NCBI RefSeq assembly: GCF_009362845.1
Contig: NZ_WHNW01000001.1
Span: 207,889-271,888, forward strand
Reading direction: 5' to 3'
Source: Ostreibacterium oceani
GTDB lineage: Bacteria > Pseudomonadota > Gammaproteobacteria > Cardiobacteriales > Ostreibacteriaceae
Length of the DNA stretch: 64,000 nucleotides
The notes under the pieces are model-generated. The model saw nothing but the letters and a program-made list of their open reading frames with translations. It had not been told where the DNA came from and did not search any database. How positions within the stretch are numbered: the first letter of the stretch is position 1; each line of letters begins with the position of its first letter. Position numbers and translations under genes: made by a program. This document shows positions 57,906-61,023 of this stretch, one piece after another.

Positions 57906-58364
57906 TTACCCGCGACCACGATAAGTCGGTACGCCTTGATCAGGAATAAAAACGCCTTTGGGCGGCTCGCCAGTTTGATAAAAGACATCAATCGGGATGC
58001 CGCCACGCGGATACCAATAACCACCGATGCGTAACCATTTTGGCTGAATCTCATCAATTAAGCGCTTAGCAATCGATACAGTACAGTCTTCGTGAAAGGC
58101 ACCATGATTGCGAAAACTACCCAAAAATAATTTAAGCGATTTGCTTTCTACCAGTTTTTGATCGGGCACGTAGTCGATGACAATATGCGCAAAGTCGGGC
58201 TGTCCAGTGATGGGGCATAATGAGGTAAATTCAGGAGCGGTAAAGCGGACAACGTAATCCATTGTTGCCTGTGGGTTTGGTACGGCTTCTAGCACCGCAG
58301 TTTCTGGCGATTGCGGTAATTGGGTTTCTCCACCCAGCTGTGTTAATGATTCGTAAATATTCAT
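57906..58364 (-). CDS. queF: NADPH-dependent 7-cyano-7-deazaguanine reductase (short QueF)
   Basis: Reduces preQ0 to preQ1, the last step before queuosine is inserted into tRNA. At 152 residues it is the single-domain (B. subtilis type) Que[17 protein letters not shown] holds nucleophile Cys50 and Asp57, followed by [21 protein letters not shown], the substrate and NADPH motif. It follows queE after about 62 bp. Confidence 0.95.
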
Positions 58365-58426: not shown

Positions 58427-59137
58427 TCACACGCCCCGCTCGTTTTGCCAAAGCATAACGTGTAATTGGGGTAGTAGTTTTACATTATACCATTCATCGG
58501 CGATGGTTTTTGCCAGTAGCCACTTGAGGCGTTCATTTAACTGCTCAAGGTTGACCGTCGGCTCATGTGCAAATGGATTACAAGGCTGGAGCGTCATCGC
58601 AATGTGTGGGTATTGTTGGTGTATTGATTTTGCAAACGCATAATCCGCAGCATCGGCCACGACAATTTTTAATTGCGGACTGGGGTGCGAAGCCAATGTT
58701 TTTTCAAGTAGTTGAGAGGCTTTTTCAGCATCTATATTAACCTTTGCGGATGGCGGTTTGGGGCTGACAATTAAATAATCGAGCAGGCGAAAATAATCTT
58801 TGACGATGCTGCCTTGTGTTTCCATGGCAAAATGAAACCCTGCCTTTTGACCAAGGTCGATTAAGGTGGAAAAATCAAAAATCGCAGGATTTCCCCCAGA
58901 TAAAGTCACCAAAATGGGTTGGTTATTGGTCAGGGCGTTGATGCGGGCAAAAATCGTCTCGCTATCTAGGCGTTCCCAGCTGGGTCGATGAACCGCATCG
59001 ACCGCATAGAGGCTATCGCACCACTGACAACGAAAATCACAGCCACCGACACGGACAAAGACGGTGGGTTTACCAATCAGATGCCCTTCGCCTTGAATCG
59101 TTGGGCCAAAAATTTCACTGATGTAGATGTCGGTCAT
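58427..59137 (-). CDS. queE: 7-carboxy-7-deazaguanine synthase
   Basis: Radical-SAM enzyme that converts 6-carboxytetrahydropterin to CDG. 236 residues: EIFGPTIQGEGHLIGKPTVF, then the cluster motif GGCDFRCQWCDS with Cys33, Cys37 and Cys40 (CX3CX2C), and LSGGNPAIFDF for SAM binding. It is the third gene of queC-queD-queE and starts 21 bp after the queD stop, just beyond the queD 3' duplication. Confidence 0.94.
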   Translation of the reverse strand: MTDIYISEIFGPTIQGEGHLIGKPTVFVRVGGCDFRCQWCDSLYAVDAVHRPSWERLDSETIFARINALTNNQPILVTLSGGNPAIFDFSTLIDLGQKAGFHFAMETQGSIVKDYFRLLDYLIVSPKPPSAKVNIDAEKASQLLEKTLASHPSPQLKIVVADAADYAFAKSIHQQYPHIAMTLQPCNPFAHEPTVNLEQLNERLKWLLAKTIADEWYNVKLLPQLHVMLWQNERGV

Positions 59138-59143
59138 TGGTTG

Positions 59144-59173
59144 TTATTGGGTGGGTTGTTACTGGGTGGGTTG
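59144..59173 (-). repeat. In-frame 15-bp duplication of the queD 3' end
   Basis: Minus-strand CAACCCACCCAGTAA (59173-59159, Gln-Pro-Thr-Gln-stop) is followed by CAACCCACCCAATAA (59158-59144), the same codons and stop with one silent change. Confidence 0.92.
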
Positions 59174-59530
59174 TTTGGGGCGATATTCGGCAAACGTTTT
59201 GGGTGTTTCCATGACACTAACGGCAACGACCTCTGGCCAACGAGCATGACACCATTCGTATAAGTGCTTTGCGATTAATTCTGCGGTCACGCAATCATCT
59301 CCAAGCACGTCATTCAAGTGACGGTGGTCTAGTGAGTTATCAATATAGGCTTTGAAATCACTAAGCGCTAGGTAGTCTTTGACAAACCCTTTGTCGTCTA
59401 GTGTTTCGCTTTGTAGCTCAATGCAGACTTCATAGTTATGTCCGTGTAATCGACGGCAGGGATGAGTTTCAGCTACTTGTTTTAACTGATGCGAGGCGGA
59501 AAAATGAAACGCTTTTTTAATAGTAAACAT
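59159..59530 (-). CDS. queD: 6-carboxy-5,6,7,8-tetrahydropterin synthase
   Basis: Converts dihydroneopterin triphosphate to CPH4. 123 residues with zinc ligands His14 (SASHQL), His29 and His31 (HGHNY), and catalytic Cys25. It starts 4 bp after the queC stop, so the two are translationally linked. Confidence 0.94.
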   Translation of the reverse strand: MFTIKKAFHFSASHQLKQVAETHPCRRLHGHNYEVCIELQSETLDDKGFVKDYLALSDFKAYIDNSLDHRHLNDVLGDDCVTAELIAKHLYEWCHARWPEVVAVSVMETPKTFAEYRPKQPTQ

Positions 59531-59534
59531 AAGG

Positions 59535-60278
59535 CTATTGGTCAGCTAAGGGTTGGTTTTTTTGTGTTGCTTGGTGCCAAAACGTCGTGTCGGCATAGGT
59601 GGTTTGATCCGTAATCCCCGCGTGGTGGACGGCTTCTAGTCGTTCAACGCAAGTGCCGCAACGACCACAATGGATGTCGCCACCGTTGTAGCACGACCAA
59701 GTTTCGTGAATGGGTACAGACAGCTCACCTGCAATAGCCGCAATATCGCCTTTGTTGATAGTCAAGTAAGGTGCAAAGAGGGTTATTGCGGGTGTTTTCC
59801 CTAGCGCGTATTGCTGCATGGTGGCAAAAGCCTCAATGAATTCAGGGCGACAATCGGGATAAATAAAGTGGTCGCCACCGTGTACGGCAATGGCGACTTG
59901 GGTTGCGCCGATGCTATCGGCAAACCCAAAGGCAATTGTCAGCATAATGGCGTTGCGATTAGGGACGACGGTGCTTGCCATGTTGTCAGCAGCATAATGC
60001 CCCTCGGGGATGGCTTCATCGTGACTCGTCAGGGCTGATTGTAGCGATTGACCTAGCGTTGAGATATCAATGAGATGGTGGGGCACATTGAGGCGCTGGG
60101 CACAAGCGATAGCGCAATCAATTTCTTTGCGGTGGCGTTGCCCGTAGTTAAACGTCAACAGTCCCATTAGTTCCTGGGCCTGTTTTTGGGCCTGTTGCTG
60201 GGTGCTTTGGTGTGCGATGTGGTGCGCGAGCGTCACCGAATCTAGTCCGCCTGAGCAGACAACGAGTGTTTTATTCAT
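59535..60278 (-). CDS. queC: 7-cyano-7-deazaguanine synthase
   Basis: ATP-dependent ligase that makes preQ0 from CDG. 247 residues with the PP-loop SGGLDSVTLAHH at 9-20, LLTFNYGQRHRKE, VPNRNAIMLTIA and the C-terminal zinc site WSCYNGGDIHCGRCGTCVER. First gene of the que operon. Its ribosome site AAGGA (60285-60289) is the 3' edge of the preQ1 riboswitch. Confidence 0.95.
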   Translation of the reverse strand: MNKTLVVCSGGLDSVTLAHHIAHQSTQQQAQKQAQELMGLLTFNYGQRHRKEIDCAIACAQRLNVPHHLIDISTLGQSLQSALTSHDEAIPEGHYAADNMASTVVPNRNAIMLTIAFGFADSIGATQVAIAVHGGDHFIYPDCRPEFIEAFATMQQYALGKTPAITLFAPYLTINKGDIAAIAGELSVPIHETWSCYNGGDIHCGRCGTCVERLEAVHHAGITDQTTYADTTFWHQATQKNQPLADQ

Positions 60279-60284
60279 AAGGTA

Positions 60285-60332
60285 TCCTTGTTTTTTATGC
60301 CGAAAAATAGGCGCTGGGTAGGCTGCGACCAG
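60285..60332 (-). ncRNA. preQ1-I riboswitch with an insertion before the A-rich tail
   Basis: On the minus strand CUGG (60332-60329) pairs with CCAG (60317-60314) as P1. The loop begins UCGCAG (60328-60323) and continues CCUAC. The tail is AUAAAAAACAAGG. The P1/UCGCAG/ACAAGG words agree with the Thermoanaerobacter tengcongensis preQ1-I aptamer as I remember it. The expected ligand cytosine is the C before CCAG. Between P1 and the A-rich tail lies an extra segment (60313-60299) that could form a 3-bp hairpin. The tail overlaps the queC ribosome site, so ligand should block translation. Confidence 0.8.
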
Positions 60333-60344
60333 TACTTAGCCCGT

Positions 60345-60373
60345 ATTATACGTTATTTATTGATGCCGATAAA
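60345..60373 (-). promoter_or_regulatory. Sigma-70 promoter of queC-queD-queE
   Basis: TTTATC (60373-60368) and a perfect TATAAT (60350-60345) on the minus strand, spacing 17 bp. The transcript would start near 60338, about six bases before riboswitch P1. Confidence 0.75.
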
Positions 60374-60495: not shown

Positions 60496-61023
60496 ATGAC
60501 AGCAAACTCAATTCGTGTAGTTGGTCCCGTTCATGCTAATACAGACCATGGTAGCGCTATCACAGAACAAGAAATACTCGCAACCCAACAATCCTGGGCC
60601 GAAGGCTTATTGCAAGTTGGTCGAGATTACTCGGCAGGTGGGATAACACAGGCGACTGCGACCGCCGATGCGTTGATTCAGCAAGTTTATGGGTATAACC
60701 TAGGCCCTGTCTTATTTAAACCGACGCTAGCGAATGGCGAATCCACTTTTCGTTTGACTCACGAGGGCGCACTATCCTATTTCGTCGGTAACAATCCAAA
60801 CTATCAGGATAATGGCTTTGCGCTGATGGGCTGGGAACGCTATGAATTTAACAATGCGGGTGTTTATATTAATGGTGATATGGCATTGACGATGGCGCAT
60901 GCCAAATTTTTTAACCAACAAGGCGAAGCGACGCTGGTCGAAAAAACCTGGGGGTTTAAAAAAGACACCGCAGGTCAAGTTAGGATTATTTTACACCACT
61001 CGTCTATCCCGTTTGCAAGCTAG
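60496..61023 (+). CDS. Small soluble protein, SnoaL/NTF2-like
   Basis: 175 residues, no signal. The start is set by AGAGGTAT before the ATG. The chain has helices first (EQEILATQQSWAEGLLQVGR), then strands with GVYINGDMALTMAHAKFFN, VEKTWGFKKD and VRIILHHSSIPF. This order fits a cone-shaped NTF2/SnoaL-like domain, in which the closing LHHSS strand is common. Enzymatic role unknown. It has its own promoter, divergent from the que operon. Confidence 0.7.
   Translation: MTANSIRVVGPVHANTDHGSAITEQEILATQQSWAEGLLQVGRDYSAGGITQATATADALIQQVYGYNLGPVLFKPTLANGESTFRLTHEGALSYFVGNNPNYQDNGFALMGWERYEFNNAGVYINGDMALTMAHAKFFNQQGEATLVEKTWGFKKDTAGQVRIILHHSSIPFAS

Follow-up and report, generated by a model that had tools for sequence, protein, structure and literature searches.

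On the minus strand of the window, by which we mean the whole 64,000-nt stretch of DNA that was analysed, a four-gene operon of the queuosine pathway lies downstream of a short RNA element that is very probably a translational preQ1-I riboswitch. The genes of the operon are the following:

queC, 59535 to 60278, minus strand, 7-cyano-7-deazaguanine synthase and the first gene predicted to be regulated (TIGR00364, 187 bits, cut-off 150)
queD, 59159 to 59530, minus strand (TIGR03367, 86.8 bits, just below the cut-off of 89.25)
queE, 58427 to 59137, minus strand (TIGR03365, 289 bits, cut-off 206)
queF, 57906 to 58364, minus strand, preQ1 synthase, which makes the ligand (TIGR03139, QueF-II, 160.8 bits, cut-off 86.9)

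An earlier sequence-only reading of this stretch had proposed control of queC-queD-queE by preQ1. Control at the ribosome site is supported by homology, covariation and operon content, but the operon is queC-queD-queE-queF, and queF had been missed. Since queF is part of the operon, preQ1 is the product of the operon itself. The tgt gene is located elsewhere in the genome. A divergent gene (60496-61023, plus strand) resembles a metal-independent carbonic anhydrase, but with NF047901 it reaches 180 bits where the cut-off is 350.

Inspection of the sequence shows that the element, read on the minus strand from 60332 to 60285, has a length of 48 nt and the layout CUGG-UCGCAG-CCUAC-CCAG-(CGCCUAUUUUUCGGCAU)-AAAAAACAAGGA, with the insert in parentheses, and that a gap of 6 nt separates it from the queC ATG (60278-60276). 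Its parts, together with the upstream hexamer, are:

TATAAT, 60345 to 60350, minus strand, a -10-like hexamer
CUGG, 60329 to 60332, minus strand, 5' strand of P1, supported by covariation in 15 leaders
UCGCAG-CCUAC, 60318 to 60328, minus strand, the loop, with UCGCAG (60328-60323) identical to the word of the Thermoanaerobacter tengcongensis (Tte) riboswitch and CCUAC at 60322-60318
CCAG, 60314 to 60317, minus strand, 3' strand of P1, supported by the P1 covariation
CGCCUAUUUUUCGGCAU, 60297 to 60313, minus strand, the inserted linker of 17 nt, delimited by comparison with relatives
GCC (60312-60310) and GGC (60301-60299), minus strand, a predicted 3-bp hairpin within the linker (-4.1 kcal/mol)
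AAAAAACAAGGA, 60285 to 60296, minus strand, A-rich L3 tail, 3' strand of P2 and Shine-Dalgarno sequence (AAAAAAC, 60296-60290; AAGGA, 60289-60285)

UCGCAG is the anti-Shine-Dalgarno word of the loop, the last C of CCUAC (C60318) is, by analogy, the predicted ligand-pairing cytosine, and the 3' strand of P2 coincides in part with the queC ribosome site. The TATAAT hexamer had been read as a promoter; the hexamer is indeed present, but a good -35 was not found and the site is not among the entries of the promoter scan. Taken from this hexamer, the transcript would start about 5-10 nt upstream of P1. No terminator-like site was seen between the aptamer and the queC start, and transcription termination was therefore rejected as the mechanism. 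The sequence AAGG-AUA-CCUU (60289-60279, minus strand) would allow the Shine-Dalgarno sequence to pair with CCUU as a 4-bp hairpin ahead of the start codon, which could possibly reduce the basal translation of queC.

The presence of AC immediately before the 3' strand of P1 has been described as the mark of type II preQ1-I riboswitches (PMC11625349), and in the window AC precedes this strand (CCUAC followed by CCAG). The type II construct of Tte, CUGGGUCGCAGUAACCCCAGUUAACAAAACAAGGG (PMC10639078), shares with the element UCGCAG as the loop word and AAAACAAGG as a tail that overlaps the Shine-Dalgarno sequence, as well as AC before the P1 3' strand and CUGG/CCAG within P1. The elements of the Tte aptamer recognized in the sequence-only reading are thus all present at 60332-60285. 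The two RNAs differ in that P1 has 4 bp in the window and 5 bp in Tte, and in that L2 is one base longer in the window (CCUAC versus UAAC). We also considered membership of type III, which was rejected: the loop of the window, UCGCAGCCUAC, is not the short pyrimidine-rich loop of that type, and there is no UU after CUGG, where type III RNAs have UU flanking the 5' strand of P1. The type III riboswitch of E. coli yhhQ resembles the element in its variable linker between P1 and the A-run and in its translational control (PMC10622847), but it has a shorter pyrimidine-rich loop, precedes yhhQ instead of queC, and has an 8-nt linker for which no hairpin has been reported.

The Rfam model RF00522 (PreQ1) aligned over its whole length with the element, placing an insertion of 14 nt after P1 and ahead of the A-rich tail. 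The score, 21.4 bits, is below the gathering cut-off of 39 and corresponds to an E-value of only 0.2 in a 2-kb search; nevertheless, this was the top match in the 2.18-Mb genome, the runner-up scoring 17 bits. Uninterrupted relatives likewise fall below the cut-off (L039, 22.1 bits; L043, 26.0 bits), and the alphaproteobacterial queC leaders L040, L045, L055, L063, L090 and L099 were not listed by RF00522 up to an E-value of 5; of these, L040, L090 and L099 are uninterrupted as well. This model thus appears to under-detect the alphaproteobacterial queC-leader group. We built our own covariance model from 39 queC leaders, leaving out the window and the members that bear hairpins. It gave 33.9 bits on the window, with E-values of 1.5e-6 for 64 kb and 5.2e-5 for the genome, and the next genomic match scored 16 bits. 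The model had no match in 31 further genomes from the order of the window. For a strict pattern (4-bp P1, UCGCAG, C and AAAACAAGG within 40 nt) the expected number per window is 1.8e-5; the pattern was observed once, and occurred in none of 200 Markov-simulated windows; among 369 gammaproteobacterial genomes, a pattern search found the window only.

Comparative analysis supports the identity of the element. By homology to the QueC protein of the window we obtained 80 queC loci with 53-65% identity, of which about 74 have the same leader directly before queC, typically CCGGUCGCAGCCUACCCGGUCAAAACAAGGA. These loci belong mainly to Alphaproteobacteria, and some to Gammaproteobacteria. The leaders, a group missed by RF00522, agree with the element in loop, L2, tail, position and gene. 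In 15 diverse leaders, the covariation score of P1 was 0.413, versus 0.163 +/- 0.047 in shuffled alignments, none of 500 shuffles reaching the observed value; 93% of cells were paired, and three of the five pairs had changed on both sides (10 such cells). The outer positions of P1 appear as CG, UA and GC pairs, and the window has UA as its second pair in common with L039, the nearest QueC relative, which has the same CUGG/CCAG stem. The P2 words UCGCAG and ACAAGG are those of Tte and are invariant in the relatives, so that P2 offers no covariation. AAAAC is present in nearly all relatives, and in the window the A-rich L3 before P2 reads AAAAAAC. The queC leader of Rhizobium sp. Leaf371 (L042:2903-2990, plus strand) contains two consecutive weak model matches, which suggests a degenerate or tandem aptamer.

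The idea that an A-rich leader, a Shine-Dalgarno sequence and a fortuitous short helix have combined to mimic an aptamer might draw on the poor Rfam E-value and on the folding of the longer leader. Unconstrained folding of the latter gave a competing structure, the aptamer fold was not the one of minimum energy, and the z-score against shuffled sequences was unremarkable. Such a result is expected for a pseudoknot, however, and P1 does form in the predicted fold when the RNA begins near P1. The low expected frequency of the strict pattern, the E-value of the independent model, and the fact that orthologous operons carry this motif at the corresponding position leave chance resemblance hardly any probability, and we regard it as refuted by the comparative evidence.

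What sets the element of the window apart is the segment between P1 and the tail. About 15 nt had been estimated for this segment; it is the 17-nt linker CGCCUAUUUUUCGGCAU. Taken as the distance between the 3' strand of P1 and AAAAC, the spacer measures 19 nt, against 5 nt in Tte, that is, 14 nt extra. In the relatives the spacer is 2 nt (50 leaders), 4-6 nt (13 leaders), 8 nt (32 leaders) or 10 nt (2 leaders); spacers longer than that of the window were found in a phage leader (L171, 26 nt) and in the Roseibium family (30-36 nt). The length of the leaders varies only at the P1-to-L3 junction and in L2. The sequence-only reading had held that in known aptamers the tail directly follows P1. This does not stand as a general rule, given these spacers and the fact that the linker of type III preQ1-I RNAs is variable in length and sequence (PMC10622847). 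The GCC/GGC hairpin that had been considered possible is favoured by predicted energy, its -4.1 kcal/mol being reached by 0.8% of shuffled inserts. Its pairing probability is 0.97 if P1 is in place and the tail is kept from pairing, and the short leader, folded freely, also contains it in the structure of minimum energy. No other genome, including the 31 others of the order, shares the insert, and a search of 295 genomes from the order to which L040 belongs revealed no insert. Thus, covariation cannot bear on the hairpin, and its prediction comes from energy. The insert would have arisen after the split from L039, or else L039 lost it.

Although the insert itself was seen in a single genome, the window is not alone in having an extension between P1 and L3. 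The Roseibium family includes both species whose spacer has 8 nt and species in which a hairpin such as GACGGGCGUUUCAACGAACGUCCACAGCG occupies exactly this junction (L055, L066, L091, L139, L177, L178 and L082). These leaders differ from that of the window in having an 8-bp hairpin with compensatory changes, and in a separate origin of the extra segment. In six distinct sequences of this hairpin 92% of cells are paired, three of the eight pairs have changed on both sides, and the register outperforms every slid one; the observed paired percentage, covariation score and number of double-sided pairs were reached in 56-77 of 500 shuffles, so that the covariation from these few sequences is suggestive, not decisive. 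Since unrelated bacteria carry longer hairpins there, the preQ1-I RNA would seem to tolerate additions at the P1-to-L3 loop.

This comparison bears on whether the riboswitch of the window is still functional. The insertion might have broken the connection between P1 and L3, so that the response to preQ1 has been lost and the Shine-Dalgarno sequence alone is left. The insert is absent from every other genome examined and may for this reason be recent and mildly damaging; P1 has merely 4 bp; and in the E. coli type III RNA a shorter linker increased affinity by as much as about 4-fold, which implies that a long linker may weaken the binding of preQ1 (PMC10622847). On the other hand, all core positions conserved in the family are intact in the window, even though its QueC is only 65% identical to that of the nearest relative, and many species of the Roseibium family keep an unchanged core with 20-30 nt extra at the same site. 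Hence, we consider decay very unlikely. We also judge it unlikely that the insert takes an active role in switching, in which case its five uridines would pair with the A-run (UUUUU/AAAAA) in an anti-aptamer helix, and this helix would leave the ribosome site accessible as long as preQ1 is not bound. By inspection, UAUUUUU and AUAAAAAA are complementary over 5 pairs, and neither the GCC/GGC stem nor L3 could form together with this pairing. Folding, however, favours the GCC/GGC hairpin under the conditions given above, and the U-tract is found in no relative, which leaves no covariation to compare.

We therefore favour the view that the element is very probably a Tte-like type II riboswitch that exerts translational feedback on its own pathway, its core being left intact by the insert. 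Translational repression by preQ1 is the best explanation, because no terminator-like site was seen, the ribosome site lies partly within the 3' strand of P2, and preQ1 is the product of the operon. When preQ1 is scarce, AAGGA, 6 nt before the queC start, would be free and queC-queD-queE-queF would be translated. When it is abundant, preQ1 would pair with the cytosine before the 3' strand of P1, UCGCAG would pair with ACAAGG to form P2, burying the ribosome site, and the A-run would lie in the minor groove of P1 as L3. The 17-nt insert, situated at the P1-to-L3 turn, would most likely form a small hairpin that hangs from P1, perhaps stacked under it, and leaves the pocket intact. Ligand binding, P2 pairing and the direction of control are predicted by analogy with the Tte and E. 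coli riboswitches (PMC11625349, PMC10622847); the L3 contacts and the hairpin in the insert are likewise predictions.

Regarding the origin of the system, the QueC tree places the window inside a mostly alphaproteobacterial clade (support 100/100), grouped with L039 (98/92). Members of the same order (L029, L030, L034 and L038) have ordinary type I preQ1-I switches, detected by RF00522, near a different QueC subfamily; these share ligand class and pathway with the element of the window, but differ in loop sequence. For these reasons, the operon and switch of the window look jointly acquired or replaced, and thus xenologous to those of its order relatives. Two unrelated pairings of queC with a preQ1 switch therefore occur inside one order.

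The ligand class, the subtype and the mechanism are already known, as are the variable linkers of type III (PMC10622847). As far as the literature shows, the extension of a type II RNA by 14 nt, the hairpins grafted independently at the P1-to-L3 junction in the Roseibium family, and the broad queC-leader group that scores under RF00522 are apparently new. McCown et al. 2014 reportedly describes the preQ1-I subtypes, and that study may already list any of these. It is possible, and we propose it tentatively, that the P1-to-L3 turn is an open graft site at which separate lineages (the window, the Roseibium family and the phage leader) inserted helices that could modulate ligand affinity, the speed of folding or the access of ribosomes, constituting an extended preQ1-I form that current models do not detect. 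PreQ1-I is a standard model of the smallest riboswitch fold, and natural insertions at this turn show where extension spares the core; this helps to understand the tuning of linkers and can guide the engineering of riboswitches. Since a large group of queC leaders scores below the Rfam model, preQ1 control would be under-annotated in Alphaproteobacteria.

Finally, several contigs classed as viral carry related leaders. In the viral contig IMGVR_UViG_3300032516_000995, a preQ1-I-like leader (L171:8180-8231, plus strand) precedes a YhhQ-like transporter gene; its spacer resembles a second aptamer (AAGGUCGCAGUCGACCCUU ... UAGUCGCAGACCCUACAAAACAAGGA), making a tandem preQ1-I arrangement possible. 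A type II motif precedes a QueT-like transporter in another such contig (L170:2496-2528, plus strand), and in two more (L173 and L175) the type II motif lies upstream of queC.
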